From a virus: a stretch of DNA of 31,465 nucleotides. Below, one piece after another: positions 3,001 to 19,594 of this stretch; the stretch's first letter is position 1; every line of letters begins with the position of its first letter. Location of the stretch: the IMG/VR virus record IMGVR_UViG_3300025617_000067, positions 1 through 31,465 of that record, one strand, 5' to 3'. The notes under the pieces were generated by a model. That model was not told the DNA's origin, made no database searches, and was given only the letters and a program-made list of their open reading frames with translations. Made by a program: the position numbers and the translations under genes.

Positions 3001-6000
3001 ACCTGTAACAGTTGTGTTAGCTGGAAGGTTTCCACTACCTGTTACTAACATACCAAACAAGATATTTGATACATCACCAAATAATATAACATTTTCGCCG
3101 TTTGCACTTGCAGCATTAGTTTGACGAGTAATACTATTTAAATTAACAGTAACGTCCTGGCTAGTACTTGCAAAATAACTAATTACTGTAGAACTAATAT
3201 TTCTACCTGTACTAGAAGCACCAATTTTAACATTTTCAGCATCGCCTCCGATTTCTATAGCAGTAACATTTTCGTTGTAAACTTGTCCAAGTCCTGTACT
3301 ACTTGAAGTTAGTTTAGCACTACCAACATCTAACCCTTCAGCAAGATCAAGTGCTGTACCCCACTCTGGTGTTACGCCGTTTGATTTTAAGAAACTGTTC
3401 TGTCTACCAATTTCAAGTGTGTTTAAACTACCAGCACTTTGCGCATAAAGAATGTCACCAACAGCATAGGTACTAATATTTGTGCCGCCTCTGTTAACTG
3501 GAACTAAACTTGTTAAGTTAGCAGGGTTTAAAAAGTATGCACTATCAAGTCCGTCAAGTGTACCTGCATCAACAATACCATCTTTAATGAATACTTCGCC
3601 GCTACCGTTGTCATTTACATCAAATTGTTGTTGAATAAATCTTGCAACACCTAGAGTTGAAAATGTACCAAGGGGATCATAATCAACGTTTGAAATACCA
3701 ACGTTAACAGGATCACCGTAAAACTCTCCGCCTAAACTATTACCAGTTAATGTTATTGGATTATCTGTTGTATTTGCCTTTTTCAAACTTTGTACAACAG
3801 TTTGATAGCTACTATCACCTCTTAAGAATGTATCAGTGTTAGCAACACCAGAACTTGCAAGTCTACTTGGAGAAATAGTACCAGAAATAATATTTCCTGC
3901 GTCAATGTTTGTAACAGCAAGCGTGTTCCAATTATCTTTAATTCTACTTGATGTGTTTATAACTCCAGTAACTTGAACGTTGTTTGCAATAACTTCTGCA
4001 CTACCAATACCTTGACCGTCAATGTCTCTTGCATTTGTAACAAGGCCATTAATACTTGCAAGTGCATCAGATCTTAATTCGTGTATTGTAAACGAATTGT
4101 CTGTTATACTACCAACAAAGAATCTAGAACCGCTTGGAATTGCTTCAGCATTAACACTAAACAATTCGTTAGCACTCGAACCGTCGCTCAACGTTTCAAA
4201 TCTTACAGCATCACCAGTTGTTAGCCCGTGTGCTACAACTGTAAGACTATTATCAACTTGGTTAACAACTCGTCTTGTTAGGTTATGATTGTTATTTGCT
4301 GGTGTTGATAAGAATTCAACTTGATTTAGCAAACTAAAATCTTCGTATAATTCAATAGTACTATTGTCTATTCGTTTAGTATAATAAACTAGTCCATTTA
4401 TCAACCCGCCAATTGCAACATTTCCTAATGTATTGTAAATTACCGGATCGCCGTTTCCATAGCCGTGGTTTGAAATACTGATTCTGTATGTTGTATAATC
4501 AACAGCACCGCCGCCGCCTGTAGTACCTGCTAAGAAGTTGTTTGAAATTTCATCATCTAAGTTAATCTGTATTCCATTTTGTACAGCAGCATTGTCCTCT
4601 ACAAAGTCAATACTTGTAGCACTTGCAACAAATAATTCTCCACCTAGTATGTTTACATATGCACGTTTTTCAATGCTTGTAATTTCAACTTCAAATCCAC
4701 TTCCTGTACCGCCAATTGAACTTGCTAATGTACTAACAACATCGCCAACTTCGTATCCAATACCGCCTGTTTTAATATCAACGTCTGTAACTTGTCCAGC
4801 AGTAACCGTAATGTCTGCTGTTGCACCAGTGCCAGTTCCTGATACATTAGTTAATGCTACATCAGTATATGTTTTTGTAGCGCCGGTTGGAGTATACAAA
4901 CTACCACCAGTAATTTCGCCATTATCAACATTTGTAAGAACACCATATCGTATTTCGGTAACAGCACCTTGGGCATTTCCGTCAGCACTTGTAGCAATAG
5001 TTCTGGCAGTTCCGCTATCACCTGTACTTGATACATCACTACCACTATTGGAAATAGTAAATGTTGATGCACTTGGTACACTTAGTACTTTACCGTTTAC
5101 ACTAAAAGTTGTGTCACCTACAACAACAACTTGTACATTGTTATCAATTTGAAAATTGTGTGCTCCGTTTGTTGTAATTGTAGCTACGTTACTTGTACGT
5201 TGTATATTTGTTATATCAATGCTTGTAAACGTATAATCAGCATCTGTATCAAGTATAAGGTACTGACTTGTATTTGAGCTACGTAAGAAAAAGTTGTCAA
5301 CAATGTCACTACTCGAGCCTTTACTATCAACTGTTACACCTGAATCAACTCCGTTAACATAAAGGCTACCTGAGCTTACTTCCCACGGATCAGCTGTACT
5401 GTCATTTGTTTCGTCCCAACGCTCAGTTTGCGAAGCAACAAGAATAGTTGTACTATTTGTATACTCGCCCTTGGCATATGCAACTGCACCTGTAACACCA
5501 GGTTGTGTAATTTCGTCACCGTCATCTGCGGTAATTGCACCTGATAATGTAAGTTCTACTTGTTGATAATTTTCTGTAGCAATGTCACCAGCTTTCAAAT
5601 CTGTTGCTGGAATATTGTTTACTTGCTCAAGTCTTGACAAATACCCGTTAGAATTAGTGTTTGTAAACTGTCTAGTAGCAGGAATCAAATCTGCGTTTAA
5701 CTGACCGTTTGTGTTTAACTGAACAATAGCACCGGGCACAGCAGCAGTTGATACTGTTTTATCAACAAAGCCGCCTAGTCTGTTACTGATAAAGTTACGT
5801 ACAGCTGCCTGTGTACTCAATCTTGCATCACTAGGTCCGCCAATTTCATCGTCACCTAAGTTAACACTAGTTGAAATTTCTTCAATAGCAACATCTGAAA
5901 GACTCAAACGCAGAGCATCAAGTTCATCCACCTGTACTTTGTTACGGAAGGTAATGTTACCAGTTCTGTTGAAAGCTGTAATAAAGTCACCAACTTTAAA

Positions 6001-9796: not shown

Positions 9797-9822
9797 AAAT
9801 GGTAGCTTAATTAAAAGCTACC
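9797..9822 (-). terminator. Hairpin terminator after the 2528-aa gene
   Basis: Minus-strand GGTAGCTT / AAGCTACC form a perfect 8-bp stem (9801-9808 with 9815-9822) with a 6-base loop containing the stop codon of the 2528-aa gene. The stem is followed by ATTTTAC. The U tract is short, so it may be a partial terminator or an mRNA 3'-end stabiliser. Confidence 0.55.
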
Positions 9823-12800
9823 ACCGTCGATTGTGTCTGTCCAAACTGGTGTATTATCTCCTCCACCAACTACTGTTAGTATTTGGAAACTTTCATTTGT
9901 ATCACTAGTTCCTGCTGCATCAGTTACTTGTACTGGATTTGCAGTGTCACCGTATAGTATACCATTTTCTGTAAATGTGCTTACACCAGTACCGCCGTAT
10001 TGTACTTCAAGATCAATATTTGTTAGTGCAAGTGTACCGTCAATTGTTACATCTTCGTTGACTTGTACATTTTGATCAATAGTTGTTAATCCGCCAGTTG
10101 CACCAACATTTATAGCTGTTGCTGCTCCAGCAAAATTAATTGTTGTAGCAGTTGTATTCAACAAGTTAAATGTTGTTTGGTCGGTGCTTAGTGTATCATT
10201 GTTAATTGCAAGATCAGTTGTAAATGTTGAAACATCTTCACTTAAACGTAATTTTTCAACGTTAGCAGCACCTGATATCATAGTTTTAAAGACCATATCA
10301 AAGTCTTCTTGACCGCTTGTAACGTCTAAGGCTACGATATCAATTGCACCAATATTTTCAAAGTTATCGTTACCAGTTTCAAATTCAAATTTTAGACCAG
10401 TACCGCCGCCAGCACCTGGAGTACCACCATCATTGTGATGTGCAAGTGTGATAGGATAAATGATATTTGTTGCATCGCCAGCTGGTGCATTATTAAATAT
10501 TTTAGCAGTATTTTGAAGTTCAATAGTGTCTGATGGAATAATAATGTTATCAGTTTGTAAATCTGTTAACTGTAAGTTTCCGTCATTGTTGCCACTTATA
10601 AAGCCTTGTACGTGTAAGTTTTCTGCAATGCCTACGCCACCTGCAACTACTAATGCACCTGTTTGATAGTCAGTACTAGTTGTTGTTGCATTTAATGATA
10701 CTGTTAAAACTGTACTATCAAATGTTGCAGCTGAATTTTCTAATATAAAACGTTGCACATCATTAGTAAAGAATTTAAGCTGATCGTTATCTGATCCTGG
10801 GGTATCTTCAGGACTGATATATGTATCTTGGTCAACATCTTTAACACCGCCCAACGATCCCCATGCAGTTCCGTCGTAACCTTCAAAAGTACTATCATCA
10901 GTGTTATAACGTATTTGCCCTTGTAATTCTGTTGGACGTTGTGCAGTTGTACCAACTGGAACTTGTAACGAGCTAGTACTATCAATAATAACATCTTCAA
11001 CGTTAATTGTTAATGTACCTGTTGCAGCACCTATGTTAATTTCGGTAGCAGCGCCAAACGCATTGATAGTAGTTGCATTTGTATTAAACACATTGAACGT
11101 GCCGGTTTCGTCAGTGATAATATTAGTGCCATTAACTTCAACATCTCTATCAGCAATTAAATCTCTATCAGCAACAACGTCTTGTCCTGAATGTATGTTT
11201 AGCTGTGCGCTAATACCGCCAGTAACTTGCAATGCGCCAGTTGTGCTATCTGTAGCATCGTCGCTGTTTAATACAATCAAGTTTGGTGTATCACCAATTT
11301 CAACAATCTCGTTATCGTCAGTTGTATTAATGCTAATATAGTTAGTAAGGTTTTCACGCACTTTAAATACATTTGTAGTATCGTCAGGCACATCAATGTC
11401 AGTAATACCGTTAATATCTATACTGTCTTCAGCTCTGTCTGTACCTAGTCTTGTATTGCCATTTACGTTAAGTGTTAGTTCAACAAATAGATCTTCGCCG
11501 ATACCTACACCGCCGTCGACAACAAGAGCACCTGTAGTTGGACTTGTACTACCACTATCGTTTCGTATTTCAACTTTTGGCTGTTCACCAAACGTAAACT
11601 TTTCTTCGCCCTCTCTACTATTAATACTAACATAATCTTCAGTACCAACGCTTATACTGTATGCTTGTAAACTTTCTGCAGGAATAGTTAGTTCAACGTC
11701 ACCTGTAAATGTAATATTTCCATTTACTGTTAGTGTACCTTCAATTAACAAGTCTGGGTTAACAGTAACTAATCCAGATGCTGCACCTATATTAATTTCT
11801 GATGCTTCGCCGCCAAAGTTAATAATATCAGCTGTCGTATTCAGCAAATTAAATGTATCAACTGCGGTTGAAAGAACATCGCCGTTTACATCAAAATTTC
11901 CATCAAGTACTAAATCTCCTGTAACTGTGCCGCCAGTGAGTTTGTTTAAATATCTATTTTCAACGTATGTACTAACAGCTTTTTGTGTAGGCGAAGTATT
12001 AGTATCGACTAAACCGTTACTTGCTGTTAAGTTTGGATTATTACTTACTTCTTTAAGTTCTACACCAACTGGTATACCTTCTCTAATAAACGGTCCGACA
12101 CTTGTTAGACCTTGTAAGTCAATTTCATTAGCGTTAAGTGTAATAGCACCTGTAAGAGCATTAACTCCAAAGAAGTTACCAACTCTAAAGTTACCAATTT
12201 GGTCAACTGTGCCGCCGGCAAATACTTTACCTTGATCGCTTTCGATAATTTCTTGTTCAGGAATCGGTGATCCGCCAAAGAACGGAAGCGCATTATAAGT
12301 AACACCTGCTCCTACATATTCAAAAGCATGACCCGAAGTACTAATTGTACTAACGTTATACAACTGTCCTAGCGTATCTTCTGCAATAGTAATTAGACCT
12401 GGTGTAATGGTAATATCATATGTGCCGCCGTATGTAGAGTTAATAGCTTTGATTGCTGCATCTACAATATCGTCAGTGTTATTTAAAACTTTATTACGTT
12501 CAATATTATATGTACTATTTCCTAAATCGTAGTTGTGGTTAACTTCGCTCCAGTCGGCTGTTGTACTATATTCAATTGCATCTGCAATTCTATCTATCAG
12601 GAGTTCTGCTGTTTGTCCAGCAGCTAAACTACCATCTGGAATACCTGTATCTTGTGATAATAAGTTACCTGGACTTTTAGTAATAACATTGTTTTGTGCA
12701 ATTTCTCGTAGTATATCTCCTAAGTATCTATAAGTTAACTCAGTAATCGATTCTTGTCCTGAAATTACAGCATTACTATAGTATGATAATCCTGCACGTC

Positions 12801-15800
12801 TAGTTTGTTTATTACCACGATACATCATGTCGTAAACTACTGCATCAACAATATACTTAACATCTCTTTCACAAGTTTCAACATTGTATTCAAAGTCTAC
12901 AATGTTATCAAATATAAAGTCTGTAACTTGTGTTTGTATAGATGCTTTGTTTGCAAGAAGTTCTGCTGCTGCATTTTGTTGTGTAACATTTAGCCAACTA
13001 AAGTTAGGCTGAATTTCTCCAGGAGTACCGCTCAATGTTTGATTGGTAACAGCGTCTTCAATAATTTGTAGTATAGCATCAGCTGAAGCAGCTTCATTAG
13101 CAGTACCATAATTTCCATTTAAACTCTGCGATTCATTGTTTCCTGTACTCGGTGTTACTGCAACTCCTTGTATTACATCGCTAATTACGTTTGCTAAATG
13201 AGCCCATGCAGCTCCAGTTACGGCTGCTTGTTCGTCTGGTAAGTATTCAGTTGCACCTAAGAAGTATGCTCGTGTTGCGATTAGTATTGCTATGTTACCT
13301 GTGTAGAGCATATCGTGACATAATGCATCAATTACATATGCAGTATCGCGCTCACACTTTTCAATATCATATGAAAACCCATTATACGTAGTATTAATAT
13401 AATTAATTGTATCAGTTTGTAAAGTAGATTTAGCATCGATAAACAACTGTCTTGCTGCAAGAACATTTGCATCTACCCATGCAGTTGACGGTGTACTTGC
13501 CGATGGTAATGTGTCAGTTCCGAATTCTATACAATCTTCAACTATCTGTACTAGGCTCTCTAAGTCAGCTACTTCGGTTGCACTTGAGTTTGTACCAGTT
13601 GTGTCTTGTGTTTCTGTATTACCAGATTGTACTGTAATTGCATTACCTAATAAAATATCTTCAATTAGTCCTTGCAAGTGATTAAATCCAGCAGCTGTCT
13701 CTGCTTGTTGTCCGTTAACTTGTGTTACAGCATTTTCAAAATACGCTGATGCAGCTTGTCGTGTAGCAAGGTTAGTTCCATACACAATATCGTATGTTAA
13801 TGCGTCAATAATATACTTAACATCTCTTTCGCATTTAGTTTGATCAAACACCAAAGAAGGATAATTGTTAACAATATACGAACTTACATCAGCAGCTAAG
13901 AAATCTCTGTTGTTTTGTAGTCGATCTCTTGCGGCTGTAATTGTTGCTGCTGCACCTGTTGGTATTGGAAATGTTAAAGCGTCTGCGGCTGTATCAGTAC
14001 TAACAACTCCATTATTAATAATATCAATAATTTCGTCAAATGCTGCATTACTTCTTCCAACTGCTGTTGCGTCAGCAGTCATAATAGTACTTGCTCTTCC
14101 TTTAACATAAGTTATTGCGCCAACTGTTTCGGTTGCTTGATTGTCTTGTACATACGAACTACCTGCTCGCTGATAAGCTAAACCATTTGTAACAGCATTG
14201 TAATTAGTTCCAAATGCTACATCGTACCCAACTGCATCAATAATTATGCCAGTATCTCGTGAACATTTAGCACTGTCGTAAACAAATAACGTACCGCTTC
14301 CATTATCGTAAACATTGTTAATATACGCAGATGTTTCTTTTGTTAAGAAGTCTCTGTTATTAATAATCTGCTCAACTGCATCAATTAAATCTTGTCCAGC
14401 AGGTCCTGGACTTTCAAAAGTTCTACCTTCACTAGGAAGCTCGTTGTATTCAATTACTTGTAGTACATCTTCCCATCGTGCTTGCACTTGATCTTTGATA
14501 AATGTACTCAAAGTAACTGCTGCAACACTTAATTCTTTTGCTTTTCTAAGAGCCATAATAGTTGCAGGTCGTTGTTGTTCATTCAAGTAAGCAACATTAG
14601 CTCTATAATATGCAAGACCGGCTGTTAAACTGTTATGATTTGTGCCTAACTGTGCATCTCTATAAACAGCATCAATAATTAGACCAGTGTCTCTTTCACA
14701 TTTTTGTCTATTAAATGTATCATTAGGAAATGTTTCTAACAAATAGGTATTTGTTGCATCAATAATCAACGGTGTGTTGTTTAATATATCATTTGCTGCA
14801 TTTTGTTTTACACTAGTTTCTGTATCATATGTAGGATAAGAAACTAGAGGCAATCTACTAGTTGTATTTTCCTGGATCATATCTTCAATATTGAATAATA
14901 GTGAATCCAATGCATCCGCTTCAATACTAGTTGCTGCTGCATTACTAAAGTCTTGTGTTTCTGTAGTACCCGGCGATTGTACAACAACTTGTTCTCTAAC
15001 AACAGATTTAATCACACTTCTCATTCTAGCAAATCCGTCTGCAATACGAGTTCTGTTGATTGCAGTATAGTTTCCTATTTTTCTAGTACTATAATATCTA
15101 AACCCTTCTCTAACAACACCACTGTTACCTGTATACAAAATATCATATGTTAGTGCATCAACTATTTTTAGGAAATCATTATAGAATCCATCTTCGTCTG
15201 CTTGTGTCCAAGTATCAGTAAGTGTTGGGTGCTCACTTTTCAAATAAGCAACAAACTCGTCTGCTAAGAAATCTTTGTTTGCTTGTATTTGATTTTTTGC
15301 ATCTCTTCTGTTTGCTTCAACGCCTGTGTGATCAGGAAAATTAATTGTTATACCAGAACTATCGCCGTCGTCAAAAATGTTTATGTATGTATTAAATGCT
15401 TCGTTTGTAGTAGTAGTCATTGCACTATCAGCTTGTACTTGTGTTAAACTAATTGCTCTAGTCTGAACATCTTTCCATGCACTTAGATATAAATCTTTTT
15501 GCGTATCTCTTACATTATATTCTTGTGCATCTCTTACTACATGATAATTACTACCTAATGCACAATAGTATGCAGTTGCTTTTAACAAGTTAGTTGCATC
15601 AGTTTCAAACTGCGGAATGTTGTAACTCATTTCAGTAAACTGATTTCTAATGTACTCAGTAACTTCTTCTACAATAAAATCTTTGTTAGCAACAATATTG
15701 TCTTTAGCTCTACGCACTCCAATATCAATTGTTGCTAAATCGTTGTAAACAATATCGGGTGCAGCACTACTATCTTCGTTTCTTAAAAAGTTTTTAATTA

Positions 15801-17397
15801 TGTCAAACTTTTCAGTAATAAGAGTTTGCACTGCAACATTGTTGGTTACAGCAATCATTTGATCTCTAGCTTCTTCAATACCAAATATTGTTGGTTCAAG
15901 TTGATCAAGTAAAACTTTACCTGCTCTTGCTCTTAAATAACTTCTTCCTGCTGCAATACTTTGATAGTTTGTACCTAGTACAATATCTCCCATTACTGCA
16001 TCAACAATGAATTTTGTATCTCTTCTACATACTTCTTCATCGTAAAAGAATGGAGGACGAATTTGTTCAGATTGTGTAATATAATAAAATGTACTGTCGT
16101 TTAAAAATTCTACAATACTACCAACTTGCGGTTTATCTCTTAAACTGCCAATTCTAATTACGCTGTTTGTTTGTAAGTTAACAGTTGCTTCTGCACGAAT
16201 TTGAGGATCACCGCCAACAAAGCTAACTTGCGGTACTACTTCGTATCCAGAACCGTTATCTAAAATAGTAACACCTGCAATTTGTCCTGTTGTATTATCA
16301 AGTACTGCTTGTGCAGTAGCTTGTGTTCCGCCTGCTCCGGTTGGTGCATCAATAACAATTCCTGGAAGATTTTGATACCCTACACCAGGGCTTGTAATAG
16401 TTATACTTGCAACACTTGAAAAATAATCCTGCACAGGTCTAGTACTTGTATAACTAGTTGGATAATACCCGTCTGCTACACATCCAAAATCACCAAAGTC
16501 ACTAACTGAGTTAGAAATACTTAGATATCCGCCTTTTGTAGTTTTAAATCCTGTTGTACAGAAAACAGTAAAGCAACTAACAATCTGAGTATAACCAAAG
16601 TTTGTAATTTCAAAACCTGCTCCACCTTGTGCAATTTGAGTAAACGCATCAGCAACAAAAGATTTAACTAACGAAGCTGGGTTATATTGATCGCCGTCAA
16701 CTAACATTCCGCCACCGCCGCCAGCGTTATCAACTTGTTTTTCAAACGGAATGTTAGGATAGTCTGTTAACAATAAAGGTCTTGCACCTGGTTCGATTCC
16801 GTCAATTTGCACAGTTTCAAAAGGTGTAAATTCTGTTCCGTCATTTAGCCAAGGGCCATTCATATTTGTACAGTTTTGTACATACGGAGATGTTGTACAC
16901 AATGTACCTGGTCGTATGCTTGCACACCATCCCGGAGCTCTTAATCCGCGGAATGTAATTTGATAAAGATAACAACCGTTACCTAGTAAGAAAAAATTAT
17001 CTGTTGGATTGTTTGGCCAAACTTTAGTATTACGTAATTCTCCTGTTCCTGTTATAGTAACAAAATCAGGCATACTAATTGGATTGTCTTCGTAATAATC
17101 GCCTGGTGCAACTAAAATAGTTGTACCCGGTTGCGATACTGCAACCGCAGCTTTAATAGTGCGTTTTGCACCATCCGGTCCCATACTTTTACCGTCATTA
17201 CTATCGTTGCCGTCTTGGTTAACATAAAGTATATCAGATACTTCAGGACCGCTAATATTACCAGTAACAGTAACATCGGCATCAATTCGTAATTCTTTAC
17301 TCGGCGGATTTATTTCGACATCGCCGTTTGATCGTAAAACTACGGATTGGTCCGCTACTTTTCTTTCGTGTAGATTTTGACCCTTAAAATACTTCAT
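9811..17397 (-). CDS. Giant virion structural protein, beta-helix plus CxRD repeats (2528 aa)
   Basis: The start ATG at 17397 has GGAAG upstream, inside the end of the preceding gene. Residues about 55-330 look like a DUF1565-type parallel beta-helix (YVNQDGNDSNDG, KRTIKAA, ILVAPGDYYEDNP). Residues about 450-1600 hold eight copies, one degenerate, of a 140-160-aa unit with consensus CxRDxxxIIDAxxxD...GTN...A...Y. Next come a YNALPFFGG...GNFRVGNFF module near 1700 and repeated beta-rich segments (TTINFAGAATAINVG, EINIGAA, NTDDSTFEGYDG near 2166). The order matches the giant protein encoded next, so the two are paralogues. Such proteins occur in marine T4-like phages as virion structural or fibre-like proteins of unproven role. 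It lies last in the run that starts with the 120-aa gene. Confidence 0.9.
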   Translation of the reverse strand: MKYFKGQNLHERKVADQSVVLRSNGDVEINPPSKELRIDADVTVTGNISGPEVSDILYVNQDGNDSNDGKSMGPDGAKRTIKAAVAVSQPGTTILVAPGDYYEDNPISMPDFVTITGTGELRNTKVWPNNPTDNFFLLGNGCYLYQITFRGLRAPGWCASIRPGTLCTTSPYVQNCTNMNGPWLNDGTEFTPFETVQIDGIEPGARPLLLTDYPNIPFEKQVDNAGGGGGMLVDGDQYNPASLVKSFVADAFTQIAQGGAGFEITNFGYTQIVSCFTVFCTTGFKTTKGGYLSISNSVSDFGDFGCVADGYYPTSYTSTRPVQDYFSSVASITITSPGVGYQNLPGIVIDAPTGAGGTQATAQAVLDNTTGQIAGVTILDNGSGYEVVPQVSFVGGDPQIRAEATVNLQTNSVIRIGSLRDKPQVGSIVEFLNDSTFYYITQSEQIRPPFFYDEEVCRRDTKFIVDAVMGDIVLGTNYQSIAAGRSYLRARAGKVLLDQLEPTIFGIEEARDQMIAVTNNVAVQTLITEKFDIIKNFLRNEDSSAAPDIVYNDLATIDIGVRRAKDNIVANKDFIVEEVTEYIRNQFTEMSYNIPQFETDATNLLKATAYYCALGSNYHVVRDAQEYNVRDTQKDLYLSAWKDVQTRAISLTQVQADSAMTTTTNEAFNTYINIFDDGDSSGITINFPDHTGVEANRRDAKNQIQANKDFLADEFVAYLKSEHPTLTDTWTQADEDGFYNDFLKIVDALTYDILYTGNSGVVREGFRYYSTRKIGNYTAINRTRIADGFARMRSVIKSVVREQVVVQSPGTTETQDFSNAAATSIEADALDSLLFNIEDMIQENTTSRLPLVSYPTYDTETSVKQNAANDILNNTPLIIDATNTYLLETFPNDTFNRQKCERDTGLIIDAVYRDAQLGTNHNSLTAGLAYYRANVAYLNEQQRPATIMALRKAKELSVAAVTLSTFIKDQVQARWEDVLQVIEYNELPSEGRTFESPGPAGQDLIDAVEQIINNRDFLTKETSAYINNVYDNGSGTLFVYDSAKCSRDTGIIIDAVGYDVAFGTNYNAVTNGLAYQRAGSSYVQDNQATETVGAITYVKGRASTIMTADATAVGRSNAAFDEIIDIINNGVVSTDTAADALTFPIPTGAAATITAARDRLQNNRDFLAADVSSYIVNNYPSLVFDQTKCERDVKYIIDALTYDIVYGTNLATRQAASAYFENAVTQVNGQQAETAAGFNHLQGLIEDILLGNAITVQSGNTETQDTTGTNSSATEVADLESLVQIVEDCIEFGTDTLPSASTPSTAWVDANVLAARQLFIDAKSTLQTDTINYINTTYNGFSYDIEKCERDTAYVIDALCHDMLYTGNIAILIATRAYFLGATEYLPDEQAAVTGAAWAHLANVISDVIQGVAVTPSTGNNESQSLNGNYGTANEAASADAILQIIEDAVTNQTLSGTPGEIQPNFSWLNVTQQNAAAELLANKASIQTQVTDFIFDNIVDFEYNVETCERDVKYIVDAVVYDMMYRGNKQTRRAGLSYYSNAVISGQESITELTYRYLGDILREIAQNNVITKSPGNLLSQDTGIPDGSLAAGQTAELLIDRIADAIEYSTTADWSEVNHNYDLGNSTYNIERNKVLNNTDDIVDAAIKAINSTYGGTYDITITPGLITIAEDTLGQLYNVSTISTSGHAFEYVGAGVTYNALPFFGGSPIPEQEIIESDQGKVFAGGTVDQIGNFRVGNFFGVNALTGAITLNANEIDLQGLTSVGPFIREGIPVGVELKEVSNNPNLTASNGLVDTNTSPTQKAVSTYVENRYLNKLTGGTVTGDLVLDGNFDVNGDVLSTAVDTFNLLNTTADIINFGGEASEINIGAASGLVTVNPDLLIEGTLTVNGNITFTGDVELTIPAESLQAYSISVGTEDYVSINSREGEEKFTFGEQPKVEIRNDSGSTSPTTGALVVDGGVGIGEDLFVELTLNVNGNTRLGTDRAEDSIDINGITDIDVPDDTTNVFKVRENLTNYISINTTDDNEIVEIGDTPNLIVLNSDDATDSTTGALQVTGGISAQLNIHSGQDVVADRDLIADRDVEVNGTNIITDETGTFNVFNTNATTINAFGAATEINIGAATGTLTINVEDVIIDSTSSLQVPVGTTAQRPTELQGQIRYNTDDSTFEGYDGTAWGSLGGVKDVDQDTYISPEDTPGSDNDQLKFFTNDVQRFILENSAATFDSTVLTVSLNATTTSTDYQTGALVVAGGVGIAENLHVQGFISGNNDGNLQLTDLQTDNIIIPSDTIELQNTAKIFNNAPAGDATNIIYPITLAHHNDGGTPGAGGGTGLKFEFETGNDNFENIGAIDIVALDVTSGQEDFDMVFKTMISGAANVEKLRLSEDVSTFTTDLAINNDTLSTDQTTFNLLNTTATTINFAGAATAINVGATGGLTTIDQNVQVNEDVTIDGTLALTNIDLEVQYGGTGVSTFTENGILYGDTANPVQVTDAAGTSDTNESFQILTVVGGGDNTPVWTDTIDGGSF
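10826..10923 (-). repeat. Module duplicated at 2294-2391
   Basis: This is the partner copy, in the 2528-aa gene, of the module at 2294-2391: 26 + 43 identical bases in register. Confidence 0.9.
12841..16060 (-). repeat. Eight-unit CxRD-IIDA coding repeat array
   Basis: The plus-strand anchor tgcatca-like sequence (antisense of the IIDA codons) recurs at about 12841, 13324, 13801, 14233, 14669, 15154, about 15570 (degenerate) and 15998, spaced about 420-485 bases. The copies at 12841 and 13801 are still nearly identical over some 30 bases. The array encodes the repeated middle of the 2528-aa protein. Confidence 0.8.
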
Positions 17398-19314: not shown

Positions 19315-19348
19315 AAAAAAAGGCCTGCTAAAATGTAGCAGACCTTTT
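19315..19348 (-). terminator. Rho-independent terminator of the ncRNA / cold-shock unit
   Basis: On the minus strand AAAAGGTCTGCTA and AGCAGGCCTTTTTTT form a 13-bp stem with one mismatch and a 5-base loop, ending in seven Ts (stem 19318-19330 with 19336-19348). The plus strand also reads as a hairpin with a short T run, so it may work both ways. Confidence 0.85.
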
Positions 19349-19560
19349 CTATAATATATGATAGGTTGGACTCTGTGAATACCAACAACCTTTTGTAGAG
19401 CCACGCTCAAATCCAGGAACTTCATATTAAACAGTTACGTCTAAAAATACAACTTCGTATCTCTACGCTCTTGCATTGCCACCACAGCTATGAATCAAGT
19501 TACGACCTCTACGGACCGCCATTCCTTGCACTATCTAACTTAGACCGTCGCCTAACTTAT
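19315..19560 (-). ncRNA. Candidate phage non-coding RNA, about 246 nt
   Basis: This gap has no convincing gene but is framed like a small-RNA gene. A sigma70-like promoter with extended -10 (19567-19594) would start transcription near 19560, and an intrinsic terminator ends it near 19315. The minus-strand RNA offers local hairpins: CGTA-GAGA-TACG, a GNRA loop (19456-19467); GAGC-GTG-GCTC (19398-19408); and GTTGG/CCAAC (19365-19386). CTCTAC at 19395-19400 could pair with either of two GTAGAG copies (19507-19512, 19461-19466). No tRNA, RNase P, SRP or tmRNA signature was recognised. A 19-codon frame (19463-19522) lies inside but has no spaced ribosome-binding site. Alternatives are a long untranslated 3' region of the cold-shock gene or a small peptide gene. 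Confidence 0.55.
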
Positions 19561-19566
19561 GTACTT

Positions 19567-19594
19567 AATATAACATATATAAAACAGAAGTCAA
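19567..19594 (-). promoter_or_regulatory. Sigma70-type promoter with extended -10
   Basis: Minus-strand TTGACT (19589-19594), a 16-base spacer and TATATT (19567-19572) preceded by TGT form a near-consensus host-type promoter. Its -35 box overlaps the stop codon of the cold-shock-like gene. It differs from the late-type motifs used elsewhere in the window. Confidence 0.65.

Follow-up and report, generated by a model that had tools for sequence, protein, structure and literature searches.

The arrangement of a divergent manA RNA in T4-like phages suggests a free-standing RNA gene

What is a host-type promoter doing among the late genes of a phage, with a terminator about 245 nt away and almost no coding sequence in between? 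The question arises in a 31,465-base viral contig, the whole of which was analysed here and is called the window. A preliminary description of its sequence had proposed that this stretch is a separate small RNA gene. The RNA proves to have relatives in a family that, since 2010, has counted as cis-regulatory and perhaps as a riboswitch, so that the arrangement of the locus bears on how the family as a whole should be studied.

A conserved structured RNA behind the capsid gene

The unit occupies positions 19594-19315 on the minus strand and consists of a TTGACT-16-TGTTATATT promoter, a structured stretch of about 245 nt and, at its end, a strong intrinsic terminator (Table 1). Upstream lies a 69-aa cold-shock-like gene, whose match to the cold-shock domain (CSD, 21.8 bits) is under the Pfam cut-off of 27, and beyond it a gp23-type major capsid gene (Pfam Gp23, E 1.7e-98) whose product has its nearest counterparts in large T4-like phages, Vibrio phage 2.275.O among them. 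The stretch had been described as gene-free, which is nearly but not wholly so because the 69-aa gene's stop codon shares bases with the -35 box. Downstream the order is a late-type motif GATAAATA, a freshwater-2 leader and a 120-aa gene; the next gene is on the same strand, behind the terminator and the late-promoter motif, and in some relatives tRNAs follow. The freshwater-2 RNA (RF02980; 19191-19260, minus strand) scores 49.3 bits against a cut-off of 49.9 and exceeds the cut-off at the same place in the loci of nine relatives. A Glutamine riboswitch (RF01739) stands upstream of the RNA in five relatives (L011, L013, L016, L061 and L136), so several structured RNAs gather after the capsid gene. 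Elsewhere, the window encodes a 2528-aa protein (9811-17397, minus strand) with many RDT.(I/F)IIDAV..D...GTNY repeats and a weak Pfam match to a phycobilisome protein.

Table 1. Features of the RNA unit and its surroundings, in window coordinates
Feature	Positions	Strand	Basis or remark
-35 box TTGACT, sigma70-type promoter	19594-19589	-	sequence; same place in relatives
Extended -10 TGT-TATATT	19567-19575 (-10 at 19572-19567)	-	sequence; same place in relatives
Predicted transcription start	near 19560	-	promoter spacing
Structured core, divergent manA RNA (RF01745 model positions 1-192 of 192)	19355-19555	-	profile match; covariation
GNRA-loop hairpin CGUA-GAGA-UACG	19467-19456	-	sequence; stem covaries (helix 8)
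Loop-loop pseudoknot, 5' side, GUGG	19401-19404	-	covariation
Loop-loop pseudoknot, 3' side, UCAC	19375-19378	-	covariation
Intrinsic terminator, hairpin and U-run	19315-19347 (hairpin 19347-19319)	-	-16.2 kcal/mol
T4-late-promoter-like motif GATAAATA	19285-19278	-	between RNA and next gene; context, outside the RNA

The window promoter matches the consensus at 10 of 12 positions, with a 16-nt spacer. Such sites are no commoner in the window than in shuffled sequence (51 observed against 58.7), a single match alone is not significant, and on this count the element could be chance, either unconserved intergenic DNA or an unrecognised coding gene. We regard the promoter as real because it is conserved in relatives. 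The minus strand moreover folds better than shuffles (z -2.7; plus strand z -0.66).

Relatives were obtained as 80 related contigs from a capsid-protein search. By single-sequence nucleotide search, more than 20 of these contain homologues of the window RNA (E values as low as 1e-58), on the same strand and positioned downstream of the capsid gene; many further copies came from a motif scan, and the RNA is conserved in more than 100 IMG/VR phage contigs. Covariation among relatives, a check put forward in the preliminary description, is extensive: in an alignment of 61 diverse copies (A1), 41 of the 50 base pairs show compensatory changes on both sides, and the structure has a covariation score of 0.479, against 0.172 for shuffled and at most 0.162 for slid partners. 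The GNRA-loop hairpin noticed at the outset is real. Coding signal, the other check in relatives, did not appear; no reading frame is conserved open across the element, and stop-free frames are no longer than in shuffled sequence. The deep conservation with covariation and the absence of a conserved open frame refute chance or an unrecognised gene, to which we give practically no weight.

A blind covariation scan recovered most helices and added a loop-loop pseudoknot (columns 185-188 with 214-217), formed by GUGG/UCAC in the window and by GAGA/UCUC, AGGAU/AUCCU or AAUGAUC/GAUCAUU in other copies. It scores 0.460 against 0.160 when shuffled; its exact register is less certain because a slide of one column still scores 0.323. 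The long-range pairing first envisaged was a different one, between CTCTAC (19400-19395) and either of two GTAGAG copies (19512-19507 and 19466-19461). These words are present, but only 59% and 50% of the cells across relatives keep them paired, and we find no support for this alternative pairing.

Relationship to the manA family

The Rfam scan identified the RNA as a divergent manA RNA (RF01745), which corrects the initial impression that it belonged to no known family; manA is a marine family of the kind then suggested for a search. All of the model aligns with the window RNA; the score is 38.6 bits against a cut-off of 55.2 (E 1.1e-8, 351 bases scanned), and at curated cut-offs the scan gave zero matches in the window. 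Thr_leader, ncr1015, AbsR25 and other families lay over the 3' end and terminator hairpin, far below their cut-offs, and were rejected; blastn of the window RNA against phage records returned nothing meaningful. Two contigs linked to the window by plain nucleotide search (L016, E 2.4e-10; L061, E 2.9e-5) pass the manA cut-off at the coordinates of those nucleotide matches. Among 50 records of relatives, RF01745 is found at full length in 36 and over its cut-off in 11, and the model finds manA in P-SSM4, P-SSM2, P-HM2, S-SSM7, S-SSM4 and Pelagibacter phage Mosig.

The reciprocal comparison used a model (R1) built from the window clade, with Mosig included and zero cyanophage copies. R1 recovers the manA RNAs of P-SSM4 (E 4e-15) and P-SSM2 (E 8e-12) where RF01745 also puts them; it misses the cyanophage manA of P-HM2, S-SSM7 and S-SSM4. 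In canonical manA the same loop-loop contact can be seen by eye, as CUGU/ACAG and AUGU/ACAU. Because the RF01745 match runs end to end, linked relatives exceed the cut-off and the R1 matches are reciprocal, we assign the window RNA by homology to a divergent manA subgroup, the window copy itself lying under the formal Rfam cut-off.

Annotated hypothetical proteins overlap manA RNAs in P-SSM4 (NC_006884 164884-165057), P-HM2 (NC_015284 4849-4953) and S-SSM7 (NC_015287 151441-151572), and are probably spurious genes. As to host-encoded homologues, only four of the 64 pattern matches listed in genome contigs (L395, L404, L399 and L356) are strong to R1. Two of these, L395 and L404, are probably phage DNA in bins, because the same terminator and a freshwater-2-like leader are present there. 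Pattern matches in Photobacterium reach at most 16 bits to R1 and look like chance.

Boundaries and neighbours across copies

The anatomy of the unit was compared in at least 184 distinct copies, at least 94 of the window type and at least 90 of the canonical cyanophage type, which a second, separate scan supplied. The numbers are minima, since the motif scans demand an exact core motif and miss very divergent copies, and genes on the relatives' contigs are simple open-frame calls. Copies from one scan are related, so the percentages do not represent independent events; that two deep clades behave alike is the better argument.

Immediately upstream, 87% of window-type and 93% of canonical copies among the matches listed have a sigma70 promoter with at least 10 of 12 consensus positions, against 0-2% in controls; for the window type this is 87% of the 94 copies listed against 0% (rounded) of 529 control windows. 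At a threshold of 9 of 12 the values are 90% and 93% among the matches listed, against 3-6%. A nearby promoter, taken alone, fits a leader as well as an RNA gene. Within the 50 nt that follow the RNA, a terminator begins in 50 of 91 window-type and 31 of 89 canonical matches listed (55% and 35%; controls 2-5%), mostly about 5-20 nt past the core. The promoter and terminator originally seen at either end of the stretch are therefore borne out, both being retained in relatives.

Some variants of these signals were observed. In L263, L269, L275, L246, L299, L306, L312 and others a terminator-like stem with a conserved interior, AGACCTAAGATGCAACTC...GAGTSGGGCAGATGGTCT, and then a U-run stands about 10 nt after canonical manA; Rfam at cut-off, run on L263 and L275, names manA alone near this recurring stem. 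The -10 region upstream of manA in L227, L244, L260 and L311 reads TGCTATAAATA, in which the sigma70 -10 overlaps a T4-late-type TATAAATA, suggesting both early and late expression in these phages. In L277 an irregular tRNA-Gly-like sequence, which neither ARAGORN nor Rfam calls a tRNA, replaces the promoter just upstream of manA.

In nine or more copies the next feature is a tRNA, set off from the RNA by a few to about 20 nt. The partner is tRNA Gly(TCC) in L079, L004, L241, L298 and S-SSM7 and tRNA Asn(GTT) in L226, L252, L266 and L303; sequence inspection of L356 shows an apparent tRNA-Trp after manA. In L143 the manA copy lacks a promoter and stands immediately behind a permuted tmRNA. There ARAGORN calls the tmRNA over manA and places its tag inside it, as though manA were a piece of phage tmRNA or a tRNA-like RNA. 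This tag placement is wrong: Rfam puts the tmRNA at 5282-5613, just ahead of manA at 5624-5830, and Mosig and L184 carry tmRNA and manA at separate places, which leaves such an origin extremely improbable.

A free-standing RNA or a leader

Weinberg et al. 2010 (PMC2864571) and Rfam place the manA RNA among cis-regulatory RNAs, with a riboswitch as a possibility, and it is treated as cis-regulatory elsewhere (PMC9964418). As a riboswitch or attenuator, its fold would sense a metabolite and decide between a stop at the terminator and read-through into the next gene. A promoter, a complex fold, a terminator and a same-strand gene are indeed the usual layout of an attenuating riboswitch, and the next gene has the same direction in 74 of 81 window-type and 77 of 79 canonical matches listed. 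In P-SSM2 manA sits about 15 nt before purL, and 49 of the 89 canonical cyanophage copies listed have none of the three boundary signs. We count all of these points, together with the window copy's score under the Rfam cut-off, against a free-standing RNA.

Several observations argue against the riboswitch. The next feature is a tRNA in the copies described above, and the next genes fall into at least 24 (window type) and at least 26 (canonical) unrelated clusters that include single-strand DNA binding protein (gp32), transaldolase and thymidylate synthase. Separate late-promoter motifs stand ahead of the next gene, within 130 nt after the RNA, in 56 of 84 window-group copies listed against 3% of controls, including copies before gp32. 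A swap test for antiterminator coevolution, which considered arm-core duplexes only, gave no signal (own -8.0 against swapped -8.2 kcal/mol, P 0.66, n=50), and five folded examples give the terminator a probability of 0.96-0.997. Taken together, the terminators, tRNAs, tmRNA, late motifs, diverse next genes and null antiterminator test favour independent transcription, and a cis-acting switch appears unlikely. The two uses might also be mixed, with the RNA free-standing in the window subgroup and in tRNA- or terminator-linked copies and a true leader in other phages. Boundary signs are far commoner in the window subgroup (73 of 91) than in the cyanophage group (40 of 89) among the matches listed; against this, the conserved core, the pseudoknot and the tight promoter are common to both groups, and we find such a division more doubtful still.

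We therefore judge, with a probability of roughly 0.7, that the manA-type RNA in the window is a free-standing and probably trans-acting phage RNA gene. Support from sequence analysis comes from the conserved structure, manA homology, the conserved promoter, the terminator and the tRNA and tmRNA neighbours in relatives; to this extent the initial proposal, a small RNA gene of its own that carries a host-type promoter amid late genes, is upheld. Starting at the unit's own promoter, host RNA polymerase with its main sigma factor would make an RNA of about 245 nt. The intrinsic terminator would end it ahead of the next gene, for which a separate late-promoter-like motif is present. The transcript would fold into the manA architecture. 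A study of a related marine T4-like phage assigned its predicted sigma70 promoters to the early class (PMC9004378), and for this reason the RNA should be made early in infection, amid late structural genes; it may also be stable. Its action would be in trans, with a protein or ribonucleoprotein of host or phage as the likeliest binding partner. For a role around translation the tRNA and tmRNA partners are the only hint.

More tentatively, the whole manA family could be an early, trans-acting RNA gene made by the host polymerase, a cassette of promoter and RNA, with or without a terminator or tRNA, that moves between loci of marine T4-like phages and acts on host translation or RNA machinery, and not a riboswitch. 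We consider this extension possible but rather doubtful. The arrangement in the window and in at least 180 relatives nevertheless suggests that manA is a free-standing phage RNA and not the gene-control switch as which it is filed. Open papers matching the family names, not all of them about manA, report no function for it. If manA is a free-standing RNA gene, a search for a ligand and for effects on downstream genes is the wrong experiment, and what should be sought is the transcript, the partners it has and the phenotype when it is lost. The isolates Mosig, P-SSM4, P-SSM2 and P-HM2 make this testable.

Among known systems, manA RF01745 shares with the window RNA its whole model from end to end, the helices, the loop-loop contact and an occurrence in marine T4-like phages. 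The window RNA differs in adjoining the capsid gene and not metabolic genes, and in having its own terminator and a separate late-promoter motif ahead of the next gene. The freshwater-2 RNA is likewise a structured RNA at this locus, but lies past the terminator as a separate element, a leader that takes in the next gene's ribosome-binding site and start codon. The stable RNAs C and D of phage T4 are encoded with tRNAs, and their role is not established; by this description they resemble the window RNA in function, a likeness for which we claim no homology.
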